From contig BCJC01000006.1 in NCBI GenBank assembly GCA_001600175.1, positions 1,007,968 to 1,071,967 on the forward strand: DNA of 64,000 nt. Reading direction: 5' to 3'. Shown in pieces: positions 11,301 to 59,120 of this stretch; the stretch's first letter is position 1, and the number at the start of each line of letters is the position of its first letter. The position numbers were made by a program, and so were the translations under genes. The stretch is from Erythrobasidium yunnanense (lineage: Eukaryota > Basidiomycota > Cystobasidiomycetes > Erythrobasidiales > Erythrobasidiaceae). The notes under the pieces were generated by a model. It was not told the origin of the DNA. It saw only the letters and a list, made by a program, of their open reading frames with translations, and did no database searches.

Positions 11301-14300
11301 GGATGCGCGGATGTTGGCGATGTCGGTCTCGATCGATTTCAGGTTCGCGATGGTATCTATATTGGCTTGTTGTTCTTGTTCGAAGGTGACTCGCTGGCTC
11401 TCGAGCTTCTTATGCAGTTCCGAGTTTTCGTCACCAGACGCCGTGAGATCGGCAGTCAAGCCATTGATACGTTCTTGCAGTTCGCCAATCTCGGTCTAGG
11501 AAAGATGTCTCAGCTTACTCATATGAAGACTGCGGCGATTTGACACTTACATCTTTCTCTGCTATTTTGGCGTCCATAGATTGCTTGTATTGGTCGTATG
11601 TTGTGTTGAGCTCCGCCAAAGTCTCTTCATGTGCTTGGCTGATGGCTTTATACTGCTCGGCATGTCCCTTTGCTTGTTCCGCCTCCATCTTAGCAGTGCT
11701 GAGCTCGCCACGAAGGTCCGCAACCTGGCTCTCCAGCTGCTGTTCTCTGCTAAGACTGCTTCCGTCATTATGGCCTTGCGAGCGTCTACCCTCGTATACA
11801 GCCAGCTTCTCTTCGTACGCAGCGACCTGGCGAGCGGCTGCTTCTGCCCTTTCTTCTGATCGCTCGCTCTTGTTCTTCGCGTTTAGCAGAGCCTCTCTAG
11901 CTTCATGATACTCGGTTATCAACTTGTCTATACGCGCTTGCAAATCTCGTGTCTCCAGCTCTTTGCGCTGGTTGATTTGGCGAACATTTTCTGTCTCTTG
12001 GGAGAGACGTTCCTTCAGGGTATCTAGCTCGCTCTGCAAGCGGATCGAATTACTTTCTAGACGAGATCTTGCCTCGCTGCCACTCTTTTCGAGCTCGTTA
12101 TGCATGGCCTGAAGGTTGCGCATGAGATCGCTGAGATGGGTTCGTTCGCGAGATAGGTTGGCGTTGTCCTCAGATAGGCGGGTTTCCACATTCTTCCAGA
12201 CTTCTTTCTCAGCTCGAAGCATTATGCTCTCTCGTTTGGCGCTGTCCAAGCTGGTCTTCAAATCTAGCAGCTCTTCCGTCACACGTCTAGTAGCATCGTC
12301 TTGTCTGCCCAAGCTTCCTTGTAGCTCATAATTGCGCCGTGTCAGGTCTGCCAGCTCTTTATCTTGTCTCGAAAGCGTATCTTGCGTAGTCTTGAAGCGC
12401 TCTTGCAGCAGTTCTCGGTTCGCATTGGATCTCGCCAGCTCGATTTGCAGCTGAGAAGCTTCCCGTCGGGCTGACGTGACATCGTCTCGCAAAGATTGGT
12501 TGTCGATGACCATCTCGCGCTTGTATGCTTCGAAGTTCTTGCTTACTTCGTCGAGGGCGGATTGAGAGGATGCATGGTTTGAGCGTGACGAAGTCTGACC
12601 AGATGAATCGTCTTCATCGGCCGCATTACCTCTGTTCTTGAGAACTTGGCGTAGCATGTCTCGCTCCCGTTGATATGCGCTCATTTGGGCGCGCTGAGAC
12701 TGGACTTCTTCCTTCAGTCTGATTATTAGATCGTGCGCTTCCTCCACGGCAGAGTTTTCAGCTCTATCTACTCTGGCACCTAGAGCTGCTTCCTCCGCTT
12801 CCATCTTTGCACCGAGCTCTCTGACTATCTTGAGCAGCTTCTGGTTCTGTGCTTGTAGCTGGTCGATGGAGCGGTAGGTGACTAGGTGATTCGATATGTA
12901 TTCATTTGCTGTCTCGCTGTCTCCATCCTGCAGCATGTCTTGGTCGATATCGCCGTTGGACCGGTCGGCTATGGTGGGATCTTCCAGGACAGCGATGCGT
13001 CGGATCAACGAGCGGACTTGTCTTGTGCTATCGTCCAGCTGTTGAGATGTAATTAGAGCCTCTCTCGACGTCTGTTCCCCTTGTAAGCGATACTGCTCGA
13101 CATTCCGCTGCAATTCATCCTTTTCTTCAAGGGCCCGGGCGAGTGCTACACTAAGCTCATCGTTCTCTGCAGTTGCTCTTTCGTACTCATTGCGCTGTTC
13201 CTTCAGGAGTGGTGCACGATCGTGGATTTCCTGTAGGATATCGTTCAAGGCTTCCGACAGGCGCTTACTTTCTGCGCGTTCCAGCGTGAGCTCTTCCTGC
13301 ATCTTGATGTACGAGGTGTAGACTTCGGTATAAGAGCGGCCGCCAGCCTTCTGCAGCTTGATAGCCAGAGTCGAGGCAGAGGGTGAGCGAGGTAGCGGTG
13401 TACCAAAGACGTCTGATGTTTCGTTGAAAGACATTGAAGTTGATGCGTTGCCTCCTGCCGCCAGGTTATCTGCAAAGTCCCTCATTTCACGTACTCTCTC
13501 ATCCAAAGCATCGGCTCTTGCTTTCTCGCGATCGACTTCTGCTGCATATGTATCGCGCGTGGTCTGCATCTCGGTTTGCGCAGCTTCCCATTCCTTCTCT
13601 ACCTGATCCAAACGCTCTGTTGTATCTTCCTCGCGCTTCTGTAGTAACTCGTTTAGGCGTTGCGATGTGGAGATTTCGGCCCGGAAAGATGCTTCTGAGT
13701 CTGCCAGTTGGGATGTAAGTTCTGCGACTCTTGTTAAGGATTCGTTGAGACGTGTTTCAAGGGATGCGTGTGACGAGCGTAGCGACGTTAGGGATGAAGT
13801 TGAGGATTCGGCCAGCTGGGTTGCGCTGTCGAGTTGCGTTTGCAGACGTGATAGTTGTGCATTCTGGTGCACAGTTAGATGTGCCAGCTACTGAAGCGAA
13901 GCAAGCCTACCTTTTCCCTGCGGTCTCTGGAGCTTTCCTCCAGGACTCGCTGTAGTTCGCCATGATTCCAATCCCGGTCTTTCTTGACGATACTGAGCTC
14001 TCCTTCTACAGCTTGTAGCTTGAGCTTGAAAGAGCGTTCATTCTCAGTTGCGGCCGAATGTGACGATTCCAAAGACCGGAGTGAAGCCTGAGTTGCAGAG
14101 TGTGCTTCCCGTAGCTCCTTGAGGGAGTCTGGACAGCATTGTGAGCATATACTTCGCCAAATACGATGCCAGCTCACCCTCCAAGCTGGCCTTGTCGCCG
14201 TCGGACCTGGCTAGCGCTTCGAGCAATTCGCGTTTCTCAGTTTCTACCCTCTCGCGATCCTGCCTTGCGTTCTTTCCAGCTTCCTTGTCGTCGCCAGACT

Positions 14301-14481
14301 GCTGCTGAAGTCGTTCATTCTCTATCTTGATATCCTGGAGCTGGCTGTTGGCTGCCTCTTCGCTCTCCCGCAACGCTCGAAGCTCAATCTGGTCGGCCTC
14401 GTGCAATCGCTCAAGCTCGTCGATGCGAGACTGCAGCTCGTGAAGCTGAGACTCCTCCGCAACAGAGGCCTCGACCTCCAT
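8325..14481 (-). CDS. MLP1: Tpr/Mlp1-type nuclear pore basket coiled-coil protein
   Basis: A filament protein of the nuclear basket of the pore complex, involved in mRNA quality control and chromatin tethering in model fungi. The start is MEVEASVAEE at 14481. About seven or eight exons follow, the longest covering 11571-13872, and the stop is at 8325. Nearly the whole product, about 2,000 residues, is heptad coiled coil rich in Glu, Gln, Leu and Lys, matching the size of Mlp1 and Tpr. The segment near 13300 (YTEVYTSYIKMQEELTLE, then LNDILQEIHDRAPLL) matches the conserved Tpr/Mlp core block. The C-terminus switches to Pro/Ala-rich disorder, then repeated RGRGRG tracts (8400-8560). It ends in a bipartite basic cluster (AKRAREEE...EAKRRK) like a nuclear localisation signal. 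Many long antisense open frames here are shadows of the coiled coil. Confidence 0.9.
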
Positions 14482-14986
14482 GCCGGTTGGTGAAGAAAGG
14501 GCAGCTGGTCAATCAGATTCCATTCCACTACATAAGGCTCAGCTTGATGAGCCACACACACTCTGTTTACAGTGAACAATGCCTATGCGAATGGTGGGCT
14601 GCCTGGACATAGCAAGCGTTTCTACAGCGTAGTCCCGGAGGCTTCTGGGAACGCCCTAGCTTGCATAAGGCATTAAGATAACCCCGTCTGTCTAACACAT
14701 TGAATGAACACTTTCTGTGAATCTAGCCCAAGAAACGCTTGCTGTGTCCAGGCAGCCCACCATTCGTCTCGGCACTGTTCACTGTAAACAAGGTGTACGT
14801 GGTCCGTCAAGGTGAGCCATCCATACGACAGAAAGTATACTCTGAATATCCTTTGGTGCTTGTGTGCCCGCTTAGCAGTCGCAAAGCGGGAAAAGCTGTC
14901 TAATCAGGTTTTTGGTGGTAATCATGAAAGGAGCAACTCCTCTAGTGCGATTTTGATAGAACAATCATCTCATGGGTATCTCAATG
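14482..14986. other. Intergenic region holding an inverted-repeat element
   Basis: This stretch separates the 5' end of the Tpr/Mlp gene from the 3' end of the kinase-like gene; both are on the minus strand. It contains the 227-bp inverted repeat listed separately. It also has a short hairpin (CCCGCTT ... AAGCGGG) around 14863-14886. No gene was found. Confidence 0.6.
14564..14790. repeat. Inverted-repeat (MITE-like) element with 60-bp arms
   Basis: The arms are 14564-14623 and 14731-14790. I count 55 of 60 positions complementary, and the mismatches cluster in one short block. The outer end reads TGTTTACAGTGAACA, which is itself a near palindrome, on both sides. The 107-bp centre (14624-14730) has no open frame. 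I see no convincing target-site duplication in the flanks, so a non-autonomous DNA transposon is inferred from shape only. Alternatives are a local inverted duplication or a transcribed hairpin. It lies 83 bp upstream of the Tpr/Mlp start codon and so within its probable promoter. Confidence 0.7.
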
Positions 14987-16328
14987 CTAGAACGATGCCT
15001 TGATCCCCAGACTCAAAGTTACTGCCGACATCCCCTGCCTCAGCCTTTCGATTATCACATATGCTTCGGCCGCCGACAAACGCTCCTGAGGGTCTTTGTT
15101 CGACATCTTCTCCAACAAGACAGCAACCTCAGGAAGAATGGGTAAAGCGTGCTGAATTACCGGACAATTGGGATACCACCTGTGTCTTGATGTATTTGGA
15201 CTCACCTGCAAGAATAGCAGCCATATGCCACCTAGTTGACACACATCACTCTTGAAAGGGCAGTACGGCGTCTCCTGCACCCATTCCGGAGGTAAGATCT
15301 GCTTTGCGTTAGCAGCTGTTCACAATACAACCCAAGACACTTACTTTCCCATATTTTGAGGGGTCAGCGGAGCCTCGAAGTTCGGCATATGGCAAGCCCT
15401 GGACGACCCTCGAAGCTGGATCTGACGATGGGTCGAACTTTCTGGCCATCTCAAAATCGATAAGGTAGTATCGAGGCTTGAATAAGGATCGGAAGGAATT
15501 GTCGAGAGGTTTCTCCTGTGCTTTCTCGAACTCCGCACAGTCAATGGTGCCGCCGTAATTCATCAAGATATCACAGAAGCCCAGATCTAAATGGGCTGTG
15601 AGGTGCGAGTGCAGGAAGTCAAGACACTACAAGAGGCATCGTGAGCTTTCCGTTTTCATTCAGAGGATCGACTAACCTTTGAAGTCTGAGATAGACCGTG
15701 AAGTATTTCTCCGACATCGTGAAACCAAGGAGTCATCAATCCATCGTGTAGCAGAGGCGTAACAGCGAAGCACGCGTTTACATGCTGTATCTCATCCAAT
15801 AGAGGTATGACATGGTTATCAGGATGTGAAGCTAGTTCTGGCTTGCTGAAGTATCGAAGAATCTCTTGTTCTGTCTTGCCTTCTTCACCGGGACCCAATC
15901 GTGTAATGTGGATCATGACATGGGCACCATCCGAGAGTCTGGTAGCAGGACAGCATTTGTTGGACTTTTATGACATCAGCTGGGTTATCTGCTACATACG
16001 CGCGATATCGCCTCACGTTGTTCTCATATCGAACCCGACGTTCAGGCTGAGTTGGATCGATAAGCTGGTGATAGCCGTCTGGAGCTCGACGCTGCGCCTC
16101 GTCTCTGGGTCCATACATGCAATGGAGGAAGCCTGGACCGTCCACGAACAGCTCGTAGCCTCTCTCCAGGAACGCCTTTTCGTACGGGACCCAGAGATGT
16201 CTATAGAGCCATTCAGCACGTTGAAGAGCGCACAGCTTTGGGGCGTACCTAACTGTATCGTACTCGCCAACATCTGCCATGCGCCATTCGAGGAGGGTCC
16301 TAGGATGATCGCCCCTACCTTCGGGCAT
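14987..16328 (-). CDS. Degenerate protein-kinase-like protein
   Basis: The fold of a protein kinase with damaged catalytic motifs. The start used is 16328, the first ATG of the open frame. Introns lie near 15950-16010 and at several points downstream; the stop is at 14987. Normal kinases have HRD...N in the catalytic loop; here it reads HLDLGFCDILMNY, so the loop asparagine is Asp. The DFG is DFE (YYLIDFEMARKFD). The C-lobe is still recognisable: the exon near 15290 carries PPEWVQETPYCPFKSDVCQL, in the place of the APE and DVWSLG segments. The terminal segment SNKDPQERLSAAEA matches the end of kinase domains. The N-terminal 120 residues (WLYRHLWVPYEKAFLERGYE) are unrecognised. Probably a pseudokinase of a basidiomycete-specific family; substrate and pathway unknown. 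Confidence 0.7.
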
Positions 16329-16957
16329 GCTTGCTTGTACAGAGCAATGAGGCTAAGCTGCACAAGTCCCAGGAGCTGTCATATCCTCGTACGAGTGGAG
16401 AGTCTGTTATACTGTCAAATGGGAGGGTCTTTCCTTGTAGAATTGCCAATTTACGCGTCTTTGGGGATACGAACGGACGTGCAGGTTATTAAGCATCTAC
16501 ATCGTTCTTTCAGGGCTAGCGCAGCTCATTCGAATACCATGCAGCTTACTTCCTTGTGTTTGGACGACACTTAGTATCTGACATATAGGGGTAATCACCA
16601 GGCACGCCTTTTCTACTGGCTTCAGGACATGCTCTTCATAATAGAGAGTTCATTGTCAGTAGTAATAAGCATATACGATCCTCAAAGAGCTGAAACAGGC
16701 AAGATTGACTGCAGCGGAAGGGAGCCGAGGAACTTCTCAGCCCATGTGCCTGAGAAGTCGGAGTTGCTCCAACTCGAACAAAAGAGGCCACACAGCTTAA
16801 CTGCACATCAGAGTGTGTGCAGTGCCGTAGTGCTGCATGTATGAGCGAACAGATCCAAGTTTGAGGTCGTTTTGGCCGAGATCGACCGGGCGCCGCTACA
16901 AACATGGATTTTGCAAGTGTGTCTATATGTTTAGACAGGCACAAGCGATATAATGTA
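16329..16957. other. Gene-poor region upstream of the tRNA gene
   Basis: No convincing protein gene on either strand. A 230-codon open frame on the minus strand (16636-17328) runs straight through the tRNA gene and has no family resemblance or good start context. A TATA-like stretch (GATATAATG, 16947-16955) lies a few bases before the tRNA. Confidence 0.5.
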
Positions 16958-16964
16958 GACCGGA

Positions 16965-16975
16965 TGGCGCAATGG
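16965..16975 (+). promoter_or_regulatory. Pol III A box inside the tRNA gene
   Basis: TGGCGCAATGG fits the A-box consensus (TRGCNNARYGG). It lies wholly in the first mature segment and so is untouched by the introns. Confidence 0.75.
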
Positions 16976-17088
16976 CAGCGTATCAGGTTAGTAGGAAAGA
17001 AAAGAAGAAGATTAGGACGATATCTGACCTCCTCTCCCTCACAGACTTCGATTGTCGATGAGAAACAGCAGTTCATCTGGTGGTTGCA

Positions 17089-17099
17089 GGTTCGAGTGA
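17089..17099 (+). promoter_or_regulatory. Pol III B box, cut by intron 3
   Basis: GGTTCGAGTGA matches the first nine positions of the B-box consensus GGTTCGANTCC. The final CC is lost because the GT donor of intron 3 starts after GGTTCGA. The T of the consensus is supplied by the intron itself, so a partial B box remains in the DNA. The start-to-start distance from the A box is 124 bp, long but tolerated in known tRNA genes with introns. Confidence 0.6.
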
Positions 17100-17168
17100 G
17101 TAATACCATGGATCTGTCGCCGTTCCCGAGCTCATAGCTCTTCTCCAGGCCCTGCTTCGGTCGTTCAC

Positions 17169-17173
17169 TTTTT
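17169..17173 (+). terminator. Pol III T-run terminator after the tRNA
   Basis: Five T residues start six bases after the tRNA 3' end, the expected place and form for RNA polymerase III termination. It supports the whole 206-bp unit being one pol III transcript. Confidence 0.7.
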
Positions 17174-18048
17174 GCGGCAAGGCCGAAAGACCGCCTAGCC
17201 CGCGGCGGGATTAGCTTTTTGAATACGTATGCAATGAACTGCTTATAACAATGCTGTAGCTTGAAGCGCAAACTCCTGTCGTACATCGCTGCACGTATGG
17301 CGATTTTTCTTTCTGGCAGAGATTTCACGATTTGCCGGGAAGACGTTCAATGGTTCTTCTTTTGCTACTACGGCTACGCTAGACAGAATGTAGTAACATA
17401 ACACCAATCACCTAGACGGGGTGAGCCTTTCCTTGCGGATGCGAACGAGGAAGACTTCGGAGATTCTCTCGAGCCAGAGTCAACGAATACATGAGATCGG
17501 AAGACGCCGCAGGTGCAGTAAGTGATAGTAAAAACCACACATATCCAGAAAAAGAGGCTTGCGTGCCTGCGGGTCGATACAGGCTTCGGATCAGGCTTCG
17601 TACATCGATCAGCGCGCCGAGAGGGCTGCATCGCTCATGGCCGAGGGCTTCATTCACGTGCACACGTACAGCTTGGTGAGATCGTGCACCATGCTGGATA
17701 AACAGTGTTGAGCCTACGAATACGAAGCATGTGGGAAGGCTGCCTCAACCTCAGTCAGCCGTATTCGCCTGGATCAGTTGAAACCATGTTTATGTATCGT
17801 GAACAGAGTATCCTGGAGTATCCTTGTAAGGATATCTGCCATTGGCTCTGCTGAAAGCTTCATCGGAGTAAGAGGTCAGCCAATCCTAGGATGCTCAATC
17901 GGGCTCTACAGAGACCCTGTATAGGCAAGTACTGTATCATCAGTAACGAAATATCTCATTAGTAGATGACTTGCGTCAGCTTGGCTGAGAATACTAGGTC
18001 AATGTGCAATCACAGTGTATCCAATTGGGGGAGGTTACCAAGTCTGCA
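17174..18048. other. Gene-poor region between tRNA and small membrane-protein gene
   Basis: No gene can be assigned. One exon-like piece on the plus strand (17583-17675, 31 codons) has an AG before it and GTGAGA after it, but I could not connect it to flanking exons. A short perfect hairpin, TATCCTT-GT-AAGGATA, lies at 17819-17834. No second tRNA was found on either strand. Confidence 0.45.
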
Positions 18049-47068: not shown

Positions 47069-49882
47069 CTACCAATCGTCCGCCTCTTCAGATTGTCCTT
47101 GCCTTAGTCTGTTGAAGTCGGCCATCAGATCATCCTCTTCAGCTTCCGGCTGCGCTTCTTCTTCCTCTTCTTCCTCCACTTCCTCCTCGTCAGGCTCTTC
47201 AACTTCGACCGGCATGTCTTCGGCCTGTTCGGCCTCCAAGGCTTCTGCTTCTTCGGCCTCCGGCTCTGGCTCTGCTTCTGCTTCTTCTGGCTCAGCAGCT
47301 CCCTTATCACCCTTGCTGCCACCGAACAAGCCAGCTCCCACTTTGGCCGCGGCGGATCTGACAGCCAAACCAAGATCGGCTTTCGAGCTTGTAGAAGAGG
47401 ACTTCTTGCTAGAGCCATTGCTAGGCAAGTGTTTCAAGCTGCCCTTCTTCTTCTTCGAAGTCAGTTTCTGCTTAAGTTTGCTTGCGACTTCTTCAGTGTT
47501 AACACTGTCTGATCTGGAACGCTTGCGCTTCTTGCTGCCGGTGAGACTGGGTGCAGCACTGCTTGCGCGAGATGAACGGCCATCCTTAGACATCTGCGAC
47601 TGTGTCTCCCACTGATCTTGGGCATCATCGCCGTCAAATAGGTTGTTTCGCTTGCCACTTGAATCGCCATTGTCATCTGCAAGCAGCTCATCAAAGACTG
47701 CATAGTTGATCTTCTTCGAGAACTTCTTCTGCTTAAGTAGCTGTTTGGTAGATTCAGCTGCGGTAGCTCCTGCCGGTGTAGACGAGTCTCTCGGCTTTGC
47801 CTTCTTCTAGACTCGCACTGTTTTAGCTAGATTCCTGTTCACTGATGGACGTGCTTACCTTTCGCTCTTTCCTCACCGGCTTGTCGTCGTGCTCTGCCTG
47901 GATATGCTTCAAGGCGATGTTTTGCAGATAGTCCTTGTTAAACTCCATCCATAGTCTCTCCTTGATCCTGACTTCCTCAGCAGTCAAGATGAAGTTATCA
48001 AGCTCGTCCTCATCAAGATCGTCAAGCGGGTCTACCCCCGTCCAAGTCGGGTGTCCTTCCCTCGCTTCTGGATCATTCGCTACAATCCATCTCTTCTGCT
48101 CTTTCTGACTTAGGACGCCAGAAAGGGCTGTATAGGGCTCCGCCATCAACTCGCCTTGGATATCGTTTCGAATGTCCGCAGCTTCTGCTTCTTCGCGTTC
48201 GCGTTGCTCGGGCGTACGATTGTCCGGCGGTAGGTCTCGTTTGCCTATCAAGCCTTGTTCGCGCAGATGCTTATCCAAAGAAGGCGATTTCGACCGACTC
48301 CGCCGAGGGCCGACTGGTAGCTCTCTGCCTTCTTCAGCTGCAGTCGAGGCAGCGATCGCATCAAGCATGTTCTCTTCCTCTTCTTCATCCATAGTGACAT
48401 CGATATCTTCTGCACCTTCGGCTTCTTCCTCTTCTTCTGCTAGACCATCTCCACCTGCATCCTGCATAGCTGCCATTTCTGCGGCGATCGCATCTAGTCC
48501 CTCGCCATTCGGATTTGATGATTCCGCGTTCGCATCTCGTGCTGAAGCGTCTCCATCTTGTTCTTGCGCATCCTCGTTCTCCTCCTCAATCGGCCCAAGC
48601 TGATCTAATGCCGTTCGTCCTCGCTTTTTTGGTCGCGCATCATCACCTTCTCCATCTTCGTTCTCCTCCTCGATGTCTTCCAGTTCCTCGTCGGAGCCAT
48701 CTTCTGTTGAGAACCTGACGCGCTTCATGTCCATTCTCCGCTGTTTACAAGCCTCCACTCTCTTAGCTGCCTCTTCCTTCTTCTTGTTTTCCGTAAATGC
48801 TGGCGGGTCGTGGTCATCATGTAACCACATTGCTCTGAAATCCGTGACTGTCAATCTGGAAGTAGGGGTCTCGCCGAATTCTTCCAGTCTCTTTTTCAGC
48901 GTAACATCGGCGATTTTGACCACCTGTACCACTTCCTCAATACTCCTTCTGAAGTTGTTCATGCGCGCAGCTAGGATCAGACTTGCACCGCAGATTCCAG
49001 CAGGCCTTCGTCCGGTACTCATCCAGTCACGCGAGAAACGCTGAACCAGACGGACCGCGTCATTCGCGACTTGTTGTGTCTCGTCGCCGAACTCTAGGAG
49101 GGATGCGAAGCGTGAAATAAATAGAGATGGATCGATAGCTGGCATCTCGAGCTTGAAGTCCTTGACCATGCGCAGGTACGTATGGCCTAGCACAAACACG
49201 TTTACCTGGAACTACAGTCAGCTTGCGCTCATGTTGTGTATCTCGCATAGTATATACCTGGATGAGATCCGAGAAGTCAATCAACATGTGACTCGTCTTT
49301 TCAATTCTGCAGACAATATAGAGGCAGGCTGCGATGAGATAGTTGGTTCTTCGTCCTCGGACAAAGTTGGTAGATAGAGCTAGGGAGTAGAAGCGTTGTG
49401 CCATGTCCACGAATCGATCAGGTAATCTGAGTGCATTGACAACTTGCTGGATCTTGCGACGGCCTGCGGACTCACATCAGCTGGAATTTGCAGACGAAGG
49501 ATGTCTAGCTGACCATTCGCCAGCGTCTGTTCTCGAGACTCGACTCCTCCAGCTCCATGAGGTCTTCTACCGCTTAGTCTGGCACGGGCTGTGGATTGCG
49601 CAATTAGCTATGCCCATTGACTGCTCATGAGCTGTATTCACTCTGATCTGATCCGATGTAGGCTCCATTGACGACTGCTGCTCCAGTGCTGTTCTCCCCA
49701 AAAGTGACTTCTGCGACAATCCCGTTCTCTTCGACAACCTGCGGACCAACACAGTCAATATCTGACTGTATACCCTATATGCATTGTAGGCTCACACTCC
49801 CGCACAGCGTACAGTACGAAGTCCCAGAGGCAGCATCGCTTTCGAAGGCCGCCTCTTGGGCGCACGCCATGCAGAACGGCAT
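47069..49882 (-). CDS. BRF1: TFIIIB subunit Brf1 (RNA polymerase III initiation factor)
   Basis: TFIIB-related factor that, with TBP and Bdp1, recruits RNA polymerase III to tRNA and 5S genes. The start ATG at 49882 begins directly with the zinc ribbon: MPFCMAC ... GTSYCTLC, two CxxC pairs, followed across an intron by SVVEENGIVAEVTFGENS. Two cyclin folds follow (RFYSLALSTNFVRGRRTNYL; FASLLEFGDETQQVANDAVR, then WMSTGRRPAGICGASLILAA). The Brf1-specific C-terminal region has a long acidic linker (48300-48700), then WIVANDPEAREGHPTWTGVD and ADEVRIKER-type helices near 48000-47930. A further 250 residues follow: Lys/Ser-rich, then strongly Glu-rich, ending at 47069. The acidic tail creates several antisense shadow frames. 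This gene shares the window with the unusual tRNA gene, which is probably coincidental. Confidence 0.95.
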
Positions 49883-56355: not shown

Positions 56356-59120
56356 ATGACCGTCGCGACAGCCTACACGATCCCGCGCTGGTCGAAAGAG
56401 ACGTTTGCCAATGTCCGCAGTCTCCTCAAGATCTGTATCCTGGGCTGTATCGCAGCAGCAGCATGCTCGAGCAGGCTGTTTGCTGTCATCAATTTCGAAT
56501 CCATCATCCACGAGTTTGATCCATGGTGAATACGCGACGCCGTTCTACAGTATGCTGCTCAGACTGCCCTGATGCATTTCCACAGGTTCAACTACAGAGC
56601 TACGAGGGTGCTCACCTCTGGAGGGTTCTACGAATTCTGGAACTGGTTCGACAAGACGGCGTGGTATCCTCTAGGCAGAGTAGTCGGAGGCACAGTCTAT
56701 CCAGGCGAGTACCATACTTCATCAAAGTACGGTTCAGCTTGTCTAATGAGTGTACACAGGCATCATGGTCACATCTGGTATCATTTACAACTTCCTACAC
56801 GCCCTGAACATCCCTGTCAATATCCGCGACGTCTGTGTCATGCTAGCACCTGCTTTCTCAGGCTTGACAGCATAGTATGCTTCTACCTCCCGCTCACTCT
56901 GACACATATACTGACACAAGCACGATGCAGCGCGACATACCTACTCGGCCGCGAGCTAGGCCATGATGCTTCCGGCTCAGGCGGCGAGAGCACCGGACTC
57001 TGGGCCGCTCTCTTTATCGGTATCGCACCAGGCTACATCTCACGCTCCGTCGCTGGTTCCTACGACAACGAAGCCATCGCCATCTTCATCCTTATGTTCA
57101 CCTTCTACCTCTGGCTGAAAGCTCTAAAAGATGGATCAGCGCTTTTCGGTGCTTTGACTGCTCTCTTCTACTTCTACATGGTAGCGGCGTGGGGAGGATT
57201 TGCATTCATTACGAACATGCTGCCCATTCATGCTTTCACGCTACTGTGCATGGGGAGATATACATCCAGACTTTACGTAGCTTATAGCACCTGGTATGCC
57301 GTGGGCACGTTGAGTGCTATGCAAGTGCCTTTTGTGGGCTTTCAACCTCTTCGATCGAGCGAACACATGGCAGCTCTGGGTGTCTTCGGGTTGCTTCAAT
57401 TGGTAGCTTTCGCGGAGCTGGTACGGGGACTGGTATCTGGAAAGCAGTTCAGAGTTCTCCTCAGAGCTGCTCTCGTCATCTCTGCTGCTATTGGAACGGG
57501 AGCCATTGTCCTGCTCACAAAGAAAGGTTGGATCGCTCCTTGGACTGGCCGATTCTACTCGCTCTTCGATACCGGATACGCCAAGATCCACATTCCCATA
57601 GTGCGTTACACTCTCTTTCACTTTTAAGGTGTATGTACTAACCTGCCTTCGCGTCGCAGATCGCCTCTGTCTCGGAGCATCAGCCCACAGCCTGGCCTTC
57701 GTTCTTCTTCGATCTGAACCTCCTGATCTGGCTTTTCCCAGCAGGCGTGATACTATGTTTCCGCTCTCTTCGCGAGGAGCATCTCTTCATCATCATCTAC
57801 TCCATCGTAGCCGCCTACTTTGCAGGCGTCATGGTCCGCTTGATGCTCACGCTCACACCTGTAGTGTGCCTCAGCGCAGCTATGGTAGTCAGCAGGCTGT
57901 TTGAGACATATCTAGACCCAGTCCTCCCTGGATCGAGCAGCAGTCCACCTGTTCAGAGCGAGAGCAAGGAAGATGCAGAAGATGCCTCGAATAGTATTCC
58001 AGAGGCACCTCTCGCGACGCCCACCAAGGTCTCGAAGAAGAAGGTCGCTCCAGCTACTTCTACAGAGAGCTATACTGCTCCTCTAGCTTCCACAAGCTCA
58101 ACCAAGACACCCGGCATTCACGGCATCGATCTTCGACTTTCCATAATCGCCTTCTTCACTTCTTTACTCGTCATATTCGTCTTCCACTGTACGTGGGTCA
58201 CCTCTTCTGCATACTCGTCGCCATCTGTAGTGCTGGCGTCTAGAGCGCCGGACGGAAGCCAGAACATCATTGATGATTTTAGAGAGGCATACTATTGGTT
58301 GAGGAGAAACACAGCAGAGGACGCTAAAGTCATGTCGTGGTGGGACTATGGATGTAGGTCGGAATATTACTTTTCTGTGAAGAAAGCTCGCTGACTTTCG
58401 TTCGTTTGCAGACCAAATCGCCGGCTTCTCAGAGCGAGTCACTCTGGTCGACAATAATACGTGGAATAACACACAGTGAGGGATGATTTACGGTATATTG
58501 TTTAGCCGAAGTAGGCTGAATGCTCTGTCCTTGAACAGCATCGCGACTGTCGGCAAAGCCATGTCTACACGAGAAGAGGTCGCCTATCCTATCTTGAAGC
58601 AGCACGATGTGGACTATGTCCTCATTATATTCGGAGGATTGATCGGCTTCTCCGGAGACGACATCAACAAGTTCTTGTGGATGATCCGTATCTCAGGCGG
58701 TAGGCCCTTTTCTTCGTGAGCAATCTTGTACTTCAGCTGATCCAGTGAATCATAGGCATCTGGCCGGACGAGATCAAGGAGAGCAACTACTTCAGCTCTC
58801 GAGGCGAGTACAAGGTCGATGGCGACGCGAGCGCGACTATGCGGGAGAGCTTGATGTACAAGATGTCCTACTATCGCTTCACCGAGTTGTTCGGTGGTCA
58901 AAAAGCCGTCGACAGAGTCCGACAGCAAGAAATCCCTTCACCGGGACCTACGCTCGACACGCTGGAAGAGGCATTCACGTCCGAGAACTGGATCGTGAGG
59001 ATATATAAAGTGAAGAAGGAAGATGTCCTCTCGAGAGACCTGAAAGCGGCGGGCGCTTTCGATGCGGGTAAGAAGAAGAAGAGGGTAAAGAAGGTTGGCA
59101 GTAAGAATGTTAGACAGTAG
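56356..59120 (+). CDS. STT3: Oligosaccharyltransferase catalytic subunit Stt3
   Basis: Transfers the lipid-linked glycan to Asn-X-Ser/Thr of nascent proteins in the ER lumen. The start MTVATAYTIPRWSKE at 56356 is followed by a first membrane helix. The first luminal loop has FAVINFESIIHEFDP then WFNYRATRVLTSGGF, with the conserved D before the W. Many membrane helices follow (e.g. EAIAIFILMFTFYLWLKAL). The catalytic loop motif GYISRSVAGSYDNE, the SVSEHQPTAW loop, the signature AKVMSWWDYG (split at 58351) and the DK motif DINKFLWMI are all present. The basic end GKKKKRVKKVGSKNV is an ER-type cytosolic tail. An insertion of about 60 Ser/Thr/Glu-rich residues near 57930-58100 sits between membrane helices. 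About 750 residues in at least nine exons. Its promoter is shared with MAK16 (127 bp). Confidence 0.96.

Follow-up and report, generated by a model that had tools for sequence, protein, structure and literature searches.

A tRNA-Arg(TCG) gene lies at positions 16958–17163 on the forward strand of the window, by which we mean the whole 64,000-nt stretch of DNA analyzed. When the segments 16987–17044 and 17096–17148 were removed, ARAGORN recognized the remaining sequence as tRNA-Arg(tcg) with a 23-nt intron of the 37/38 type at 17052–17074 (given as i(37,23); its ends may shift by one base). The spliced form has 21 stem pairs with no mismatches, three of them G-U pairs, and contains the conserved bases T8, a D loop that starts with A and includes GG, T33, and the TTCRA sequence of the T loop. 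A previous reading of the sequence alone (the sequence-only reading) had described this gene as a fully paired cloverleaf interrupted by two mRNA-like introns; its coordinates and intron boundaries proved exact, the pairing of all stems was confirmed, and the spliced form was accepted by ARAGORN as a tRNA.

As placed by ARAGORN on the spliced form, the first exon (16958–16986) comprises the 5′ strand of the acceptor stem, the D arm, and the first four bases of the anticodon stem. A 58-nt intron of spliceosomal type (16987–17044; GTTAGT...CTGAC...CACAG, with CTGAC at 17024–17028) follows between tRNA positions 30 and 31. The second exon (17045–17095) contains the remainder of the anticodon stem, the anticodon loop with the anticodon TCG (17048–17050) and the 23-nt intron, the variable loop, the 5′ strand of the T stem, and TTCGA of the T loop. 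T-loop positions 58 and 59 are separated by a 53-nt intron of spliceosomal type (17096–17148; GTGAGT...CTCAT...CCAG, with CTCAT at 17131–17135), and the third exon (17149–17163, again from ARAGORN on the spliced form) provides the end of the T loop, the 3′ strands of the T and acceptor stems, and the discriminator G. All of these features are on the forward strand. In this parse, the 58- and 53-nt introns are neither at 37/38 nor associated with a BHB motif. Judged by position, they fall outside the class removed by the tRNA endonuclease, and the 23-nt intron falls inside it, as one of the ordinary type.

A TATA-like element read from the sequence, TCTATATG (16922–16929, forward strand), is situated 29–36 nt upstream of the gene and is a candidate Pol III upstream element; a second TATA-like site, detected by script, is nearer the gene at −9. 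A TTTTT run at 17169–17173 on the same strand is a likely Pol III terminator. The A box is intact, and the second spliceosomal-type intron cuts the B box after GGTTCGA.

No tRNA was reported by ARAGORN in the raw sequence of 16958–17163 with the intron option either on or off, and Rfam gave no match at gathering score anywhere in the window, nor any tRNA match at E ≤ 10 in the raw region 16800–17400. Removal of the first intron alone did not yield a tRNA in ARAGORN at this locus. When the second intron alone was removed and long introns were allowed (two settings), the result was a tRNA-Thr(agt) with all stems paired and an anticodon-loop intron of 81 nt, inside which the first intron segment would fall. 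In addition, a strict scan of the window (described below) yielded nothing but this locus, which it parsed in five ways on the forward strand. These parses, named Arg, SeC, Ile, Val, and Asn, differ in the choice of splice sites around the anticodon, and all of them remove 17096–17148 together with a segment starting at 16987 or 16991. The genome also contains an Arg(TCT) gene in which CAGACTTC reads unbroken. The Arg(TCG) parse was preferred because its junction CAG|ACTTC and its tRNA body match this Arg(TCT) gene; the four other zero-mismatch cloverleaves and the Thr parse, which match it less well at the junction and in the body, were set aside.

Split tRNA genes in the genome

The genome searched consists of 20.9 Mb in 10 contigs, and the window corresponds to 1007968–1071967 of contig C6. 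In the scan, one or two candidate introns of the form GT[AGT]...YAG (40–95 nt, containing YTNAY) were removed, and ARAGORN was used to find tRNAs spanning the junctions; the strict filter allowed at most one mismatch and demanded conserved tRNA bases. With this filter, no match was found in the reversed window or in five dinucleotide shuffles (14,260–16,400 tests each), and a looser filter gave none in eight further shuffles, so that all 14 control sequences were at zero. When the intron definition was widened and up to three removals were allowed, 16 matches were obtained in the window, all within 16801–17200, and none in three controls (266,295–563,133 combinations). The widest filter gave nine overlapping matches in the reversed window and none in four shuffles. 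Since the scan assumed GT..AG introns, the intron ends are partly chosen.

Loci for examination were drawn from B-box, A-box, split-B-box, and Rfam searches. The uninterrupted B-box word occurs 51 times in the genome versus 153 times for the reversed control, that is, more rarely than the control. All 51 B-box matches were inspected, as were 16 of 16, 5 of 5, 21 of 47 (plus that of the window itself), and 20 of 74 (plus earlier loci) of the other pattern matches. Among 33 loci chosen by A-box-like words, 68,573 combinations yielded a single match, Val(CAC). A genome-wide Rfam search for tRNAs gave at least 17 matches at E ≤ 0.001 and missed genes for Glu(TTC) and Gly(CCC), both unsplit, that ARAGORN found at selected loci. 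Two Glu(TTC) genes (L056, 152–237, and L059, 1270–1355), which were not listed by the Rfam search, have identical near flanks and are close to two contig ends. An unusual telomere-like repeat with TGTAAACCCTC units of approximately 11 nt was seen at contig ends (L048, L050, L051, and L054). By eye, contig C10 (57.9 kb, L057) carries tandem pheromone-like peptides (YPPGGAVSIC...) and a STE3-like frame, and is possibly a mating-type region. Together with the U6 introns described below, these features indicate that the fungus is probably a Pucciniomycotina basidiomycete.

In these targeted searches, the removal of 28 introns, 27 of them distinct in sequence, turned 22 tRNA genes into full cloverleaves; the counts are lower bounds. 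These genes are the Arg(TCG) gene of the window, two Lys(CTT), two Gly(GCC), two Leu(AAG), Gln(CTG), Gln(TTG), Thr(AGT), Arg(TCT), Arg(CCT), a second Arg(CCG), Asn(GTT), Lys(TTT), Pro(CGG), Pro(AGG), Pro(TGG), Tyr(GTA), initiator Met, Ser(TGA), and Val(CAC). Six of the 22 contain two such introns, and the Leu(AAG) pair has the same tRNA and intron sequence on opposite strands. For comparison, 18 genes lacking such introns were listed; since only part of the pattern matches was inspected, the proportion of 22 split to 18 unsplit genes is not a census. The anticodons of Arg(CCG), Pro(AGG), Leu(CAG), Trp (L008), and some unsplit genes were re-read from the loop, and their ARAGORN names differ.

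No mismatch was present among the pairs bracketed by ARAGORN (19–22 per gene) in any of the 22 spliced forms. One or two stem pairs were left unbracketed in seven of them, namely both Gly(GCC), Gln(CTG), Pro(AGG), Pro(TGG), Arg(CCT), and Val(CAC); the first acceptor position of Gly(GCC) and one T-stem position of Pro(AGG) are unpaired. When long introns were allowed, ARAGORN also detected the raw Thr(AGT), Arg(TCT), Lys(TTT), and paired Gly(GCC) genes, partly under other names, and Thr(AGT) was then read with an anticodon-loop intron. The weakest of the 22 is Lys(TTT), whose 55-nt segment at 35/36 could belong to one long 37/38 intron; the raw gene scores 53.9 bits with Rfam. Pro(TGG) was found with the widest filter, and Ser(TGA) and the GC-AG intron of Arg(CCT) were placed by eye before acceptance by ARAGORN; these three genes alone are weakened by the control of the widest filter, which was not clean. 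A scan match at L019 was dropped, as the gene there is unsplit, and the matches of the widest filter at eight loci (L001, L004, L006, L009, L030, L069, L121, and L122) were discarded on account of an unsplit tRNA or a poor product.

In the targeted searches, which give lower bounds since Rfam missed some unsplit genes, all genes found for Asn, Tyr, initiator Met, Gln, and Pro were split, as were those for Lys apart from the ambiguous Lys(TTT). The single pattern match to an initiator-tRNA-like A box is in a split gene. This initiator tRNA gene (L117, from 44 onwards) has an mRNA-type intron in the variable loop and an unusually long 58-nt 37/38 intron without GT-AG ends.

Anatomy and positions of the introns

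The tRNA introns were compared with seven introns of the protein genes STT3 and BRF1 in the window, which were located by joining reading frames between peptide anchors of our choosing; one joint was possible for five of them, two for one, and four for another. For example, an STT3 intron at 56526–56585 on the forward strand (GTGAAT...CTGAT...CACAG; STT3 was identified by Pfam) is the sole joint between its anchors (EFDP-W-FNYR), and a BRF1 intron at 49206–49257 on the reverse strand (GTATAT...CTGAC...CCAG; Pfam TFIIB and BRF1 domains) is the better scored of two joints. A BRF1 intron at 47807–47858, for which 27 joints are possible, and a 39-nt candidate in STT3 were left out of this set.

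The 27 distinct tRNA introns are 51–69 nt long (median, 55), and the seven protein introns are 52–60 nt long (median, 56; p = 0.56). Their donors, in a scan that itself demanded GT, are GT in 26 of 27 cases in a GTRAGY-like context, with G at +5 in 24 of 27. The remaining donor is the GC (GCAAG) of the tRNA-Arg(CCT) intron, which reads GCAAGC...TCCTAAC...TATAG. A GC-AG intron was also found by eye in STT3 (56705–56759, forward strand; TATCCAG|GCGAGT...CTAAT...CACAG|GCATC; outside the set of seven). GC-AG introns are therefore a minor type in both gene classes. A 5′ score built on the seven protein introns was higher for the tRNA introns than for all GT of the window (Mann-Whitney p = 3e-14). 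The acceptors are YAG in 25 introns and AAG in two, most scans having demanded YAG.

A CTRAY sequence, with its A 10–31 nt from the 3′ end, is present in 21 of 27 tRNA introns and in six of the seven protein introns. By comparison, it occurs in 6.7% of 10,253 GT..AG segments of the window and in 23% of 1,115 segments of a filter-matched null (binomial p = 3e-9 for 21 of 27). The branch A lies 12–18 nt from the end in 18 of these 21 tRNA introns and in five of the six protein introns with CTRAY. The branch sites of the tRNA introns are mostly CTGAC or CTAAC; in six of the 27, including the second Arg(TCG) intron with CTCAT, CTRAY is absent from the expected range. In all the features tested, namely donor, branch site, acceptor, and length, the tRNA introns match U2-type spliceosomal introns.

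In our numbering, the introns interrupt the acceptor stem at 5/6 and also occur at 9/10, 11/12, 13/14, 14/15, in the D loop, in the D stem, and at 25/26, 27/28, and 30/31. Further sites are 35/36 inside the anticodon (two genes), the variable loop, 48/49, 53/54, and several positions of the T loop. A BHB motif, by our own definition a 4-bp central helix plus a flanking helix in one register, was present at none of the 28 junctions, and the central helix alone was present at one; BHB introns, so defined, were rejected. A 37/38 intron of 8–58 nt is additionally present in 17 of the 22 split genes, including Arg(TCG).

Transcription, gene products, and processing

A run of at least five T residues within 45 nt downstream was found for 18 of the 22 split genes and 15 of the 18 unsplit genes, compared with 1.0% of random sites; the four split genes without it are both Gly(GCC), Arg(TCT), and Pro(TGG). 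TATA-like sites up to 70 nt upstream were present for nine of 22 split genes, nine of 18 unsplit genes, and 10% of random sites (up to seven loci had less than 60 nt of upstream sequence). On account of these T runs and TATA-like sites, which exceed those at random sites, the split genes are likely transcribed by Pol III. Two features fit Pol III less readily: the B box is broken in the genes with T-arm introns, and a TTTTT run within the first intron of Pro(CGG) could terminate transcription by Pol III prematurely.

The exons of paralogous genes were compared with their introns and flanks, the identity of unrelated intron pairs being 0.53 (s.d. 0.04). The two Gly(GCC) genes are identical at 71 of 71 exon bases, and their introns are inserted at 9/10 in one and 14/15 in the other, with an intron identity of 0.60 and flanking identities of 0.52 upstream and 0.83 downstream. 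Both Lys(CTT) genes have an intron at 5/6, and their exons differ by one base outside the 37/38 intron. Their first introns show an identity of 0.60, and their upstream and downstream flanks 0.44 and 0.53, respectively; one copy is additionally interrupted at 25/26. Where the second Arg(CCG) gene contains two introns, its twin reads on without interruption. These comparisons suggest that the exons are under selection and that the interruptions lie outside the conserved product.

For Arg(TCG), the sequence-only reading had held that intact copies elsewhere, combined with a lack of spliced mature tRNA in RNA data and of conservation of the locus, would mark it as a dead copy. No other match to the 25-nt 5′ part of the gene was found in the assembly, even when up to three mismatches were allowed. 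A DNA similarity search with the spliced Arg(TCG) gave no matches, its own exons included, and is hence uninformative.

Other small RNA genes of the genome were also examined. The sole U6 candidate (L068, 1412–1689, near 382073 of contig C3) is a partial Rfam match of 23.5 bits followed by TTTTT. It contains two firm GT-AG introns, one of 59 nt between GAGAAG and ATTAGC and one of 56 nt between CACAAG and GATGAC, and two probable further introns of 52 and 55 nt (up to four in all). The sole U2 candidate (L146, approximately 1380–1560; C2:2011382–2011540) is a weak Rfam match of 28.3 bits. Comparison by eye with a U2 sequence placed GTAAGT directly after ATCAAGTGTAGTA, with apparently more breaks, and three longer U2 motifs had no unbroken match at this candidate. 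The GTGTAGTA of U2, just before GTAAGT, is the stretch that pairs with branch sites. The U2 snRNA gene thus appears to be split like that of U6. Two 5S rRNA genes are unsplit. A weak partial 5S match (21.6 bits) at C1:4091627–4091701 may represent either a 5S fragment or a 5S gene that is split.

The sequence tests support the proposal of mRNA-like introns in a functional tRNA gene, and a search for the same kind of intron in other tRNA genes, also envisaged in the sequence-only reading, revealed its recurrence in 22 genes. The scope of that reading, a single gene, had to be widened: the architecture is common to 22 tRNA genes, U6, and apparently U2, with the two 5S rRNA genes unsplit. Its suggestion of Pol II transcription is less likely than transcription by Pol III in view of the T runs given above.

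It is very likely that Arg(TCG) is a functional nuclear tRNA gene with two U2-type spliceosomal introns and an ordinary 37/38 intron, and that the genome has at least 22 split tRNA genes of this kind, Arg(TCG) included. The cell probably makes tRNAs with its mRNA-splicing machine. In the processing scheme that we infer from the gene structure, Pol III most likely transcribes Arg(TCG) through to the T5 run, the spliceosome would excise the 58- and 53-nt introns via the lariat pathway, and tRNA endonuclease and ligase would excise the 23-nt intron. The last step would probably come at the end, because these enzymes recognize the 37/38 intron only in a folded tRNA body.

Three other explanations were weighed against this scheme. 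The introns outside 37/38 could be ectopic tRNA introns cut at BHB motifs by a relaxed tRNA-splicing endonuclease, as in Cyanidioschyzon merolae and crenarchaea. Several introns per gene in the D, anticodon, and T arms are described for C. merolae in passages of PMC3978253, and the 37/38 introns in 17 of the 22 split genes indicate that the endonuclease is presumably present. Two introns at 35/36 are in the anticodon loop, and a few loci, Arg(TCG) included, can be read with one long anticodon-loop intron. The absence of a BHB is in itself no proof, because, according to passages of the same review, a defined BHB is often missing from Guillardia nucleomorph introns. However, none of the 28 junctions has the motif under our definition, and endonuclease introns need neither the length of protein introns nor signals of mRNA type at the donor, branch site, and acceptor, all of which the introns here share. 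This explanation is very improbable. Still less credible is the view that the split loci are dead tRNA copies with intron-like insertions, unexpressed or non-functional, although Arg(CCG) does have an uninterrupted twin, and passages of PMC4090602 place most short D- or T-arm insertions of eukaryotic tRNA genes in one of many synonymous genes and in supposed pseudogenes. Against it stand the complete agreement of bracketed stem pairs in all 22 spliced forms and the near-identical exons of Lys(CTT) and Gly(GCC), whose introns drift (the downstream flanks of Gly(GCC) still being 0.83 identical). The uniqueness of the Arg(TCG) 5′ part, the lack of unsplit Asn, Tyr, initiator Met, Gln, and Pro genes, and of Lys genes beyond Lys(TTT), in searches that give lower bounds, and the T5 runs kept after 18 of the 22 genes point in the same direction. 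On the paired stems, the paralogues, and the copy search, the pseudogene reading was rejected.

The spliceosomal part of our explanation would be shared by a third alternative, in which Pol II produces longer RNAs that are spliced co-transcriptionally and from which RNase P and RNase Z cut out the tRNA. Splicing by the spliceosome is normally tied to Pol II, and the broken B boxes, the TTTTT within an intron, and the four genes lacking a nearby T5 run are in keeping with this alternative. On the other hand, T runs follow the split genes about as often as the unsplit ones and far more often than random sites, and in this genome U6, which is transcribed by Pol III in known fungi, is split alike and followed by TTTTT. 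Pol II transcription is accordingly unlikely, if less so than the two preceding alternatives. Transcription by Pol III with removal of the U2-type introns by the spliceosome is the reading that we prefer, and it has a likely wider consequence. In this fungal lineage, a large share of the nuclear tRNAs would need splicing of a Pol III transcript, among them the initiator and the products of all Pro, Lys, Gln, Asn, and Tyr genes found so far, as would U6 and U2, so that the spliceosome would be needed for translation and introns would have invaded small noncoding RNA genes widely.

Comparison with known systems

According to passages of the review PMC3978253, nuclear tRNA introns are found exclusively at 37/38, algal exceptions apart. 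The words spliceosome and spliceosomal are absent from the tRNA-intron review PMC4090602 in a word search. Among the matches listed from the open-access literature without preprints, there was no report of spliceosomal introns in tRNA genes, and a report in a subscription paper is possible; passages of PMC13149111, PMC10484740, PMC3978253, PMC4090602, and PMC11782384 do not describe them. If the proposed reading is true, spliceosome-dependent tRNA genes join two machineries that were thought to be separate, and the substrates of the spliceosome include many transcripts presumably made by Pol III, with internal exons down to 12–20 nt in length. Standard tRNA gene finders would then miss part of the tRNA set of this genome. 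Furthermore, intron gain would become directly testable, with 28 mapped insertions in genes of approximately 72 nt and known structure, some of which are absent from a paralogous twin.

The tRNA genes of C. merolae and crenarchaea resemble those described here in having several introns per tRNA away from 37/38, in the D and T arms (passages of PMC3978253), but their introns have a BHB and are cut by the tRNA endonuclease, whereas the introns here did not pass the BHB test and carry mRNA-type signals instead. The tRNA introns of the Guillardia theta nucleomorph are likewise outside 37/38 and in the D and T arms (passages of PMC4090602); they are 3–24 nt long, in contrast to 51–69 nt here. Canonical nuclear 37/38 introns are present in 17 of the 22 split genes as well. 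The spliceosomal-type introns differ from these in their signals and in their positions, which are close by in two genes (35/36, in the anticodon).

The introns in the U6 snRNA genes of Schizosaccharomyces, Rhodosporidium dacryoidum, and Rhodotorula hasegawae are, as here, mRNA-type introns in the gene of a small Pol III noncoding RNA. Introns in both U6 and U2 were reportedly described earlier in the red yeasts among these (R. dacryoidum and R. hasegawae). In the known U6 cases, a spliceosomal RNA is interrupted, and the introns were proposed to result from reverse splicing near its catalytic site, whereas the hosts here are at least 22 tRNAs, which are outside the spliceosome. Because mRNA-type introns in U6 are already known, the tRNAs would represent a new class of host for a known kind of intron.
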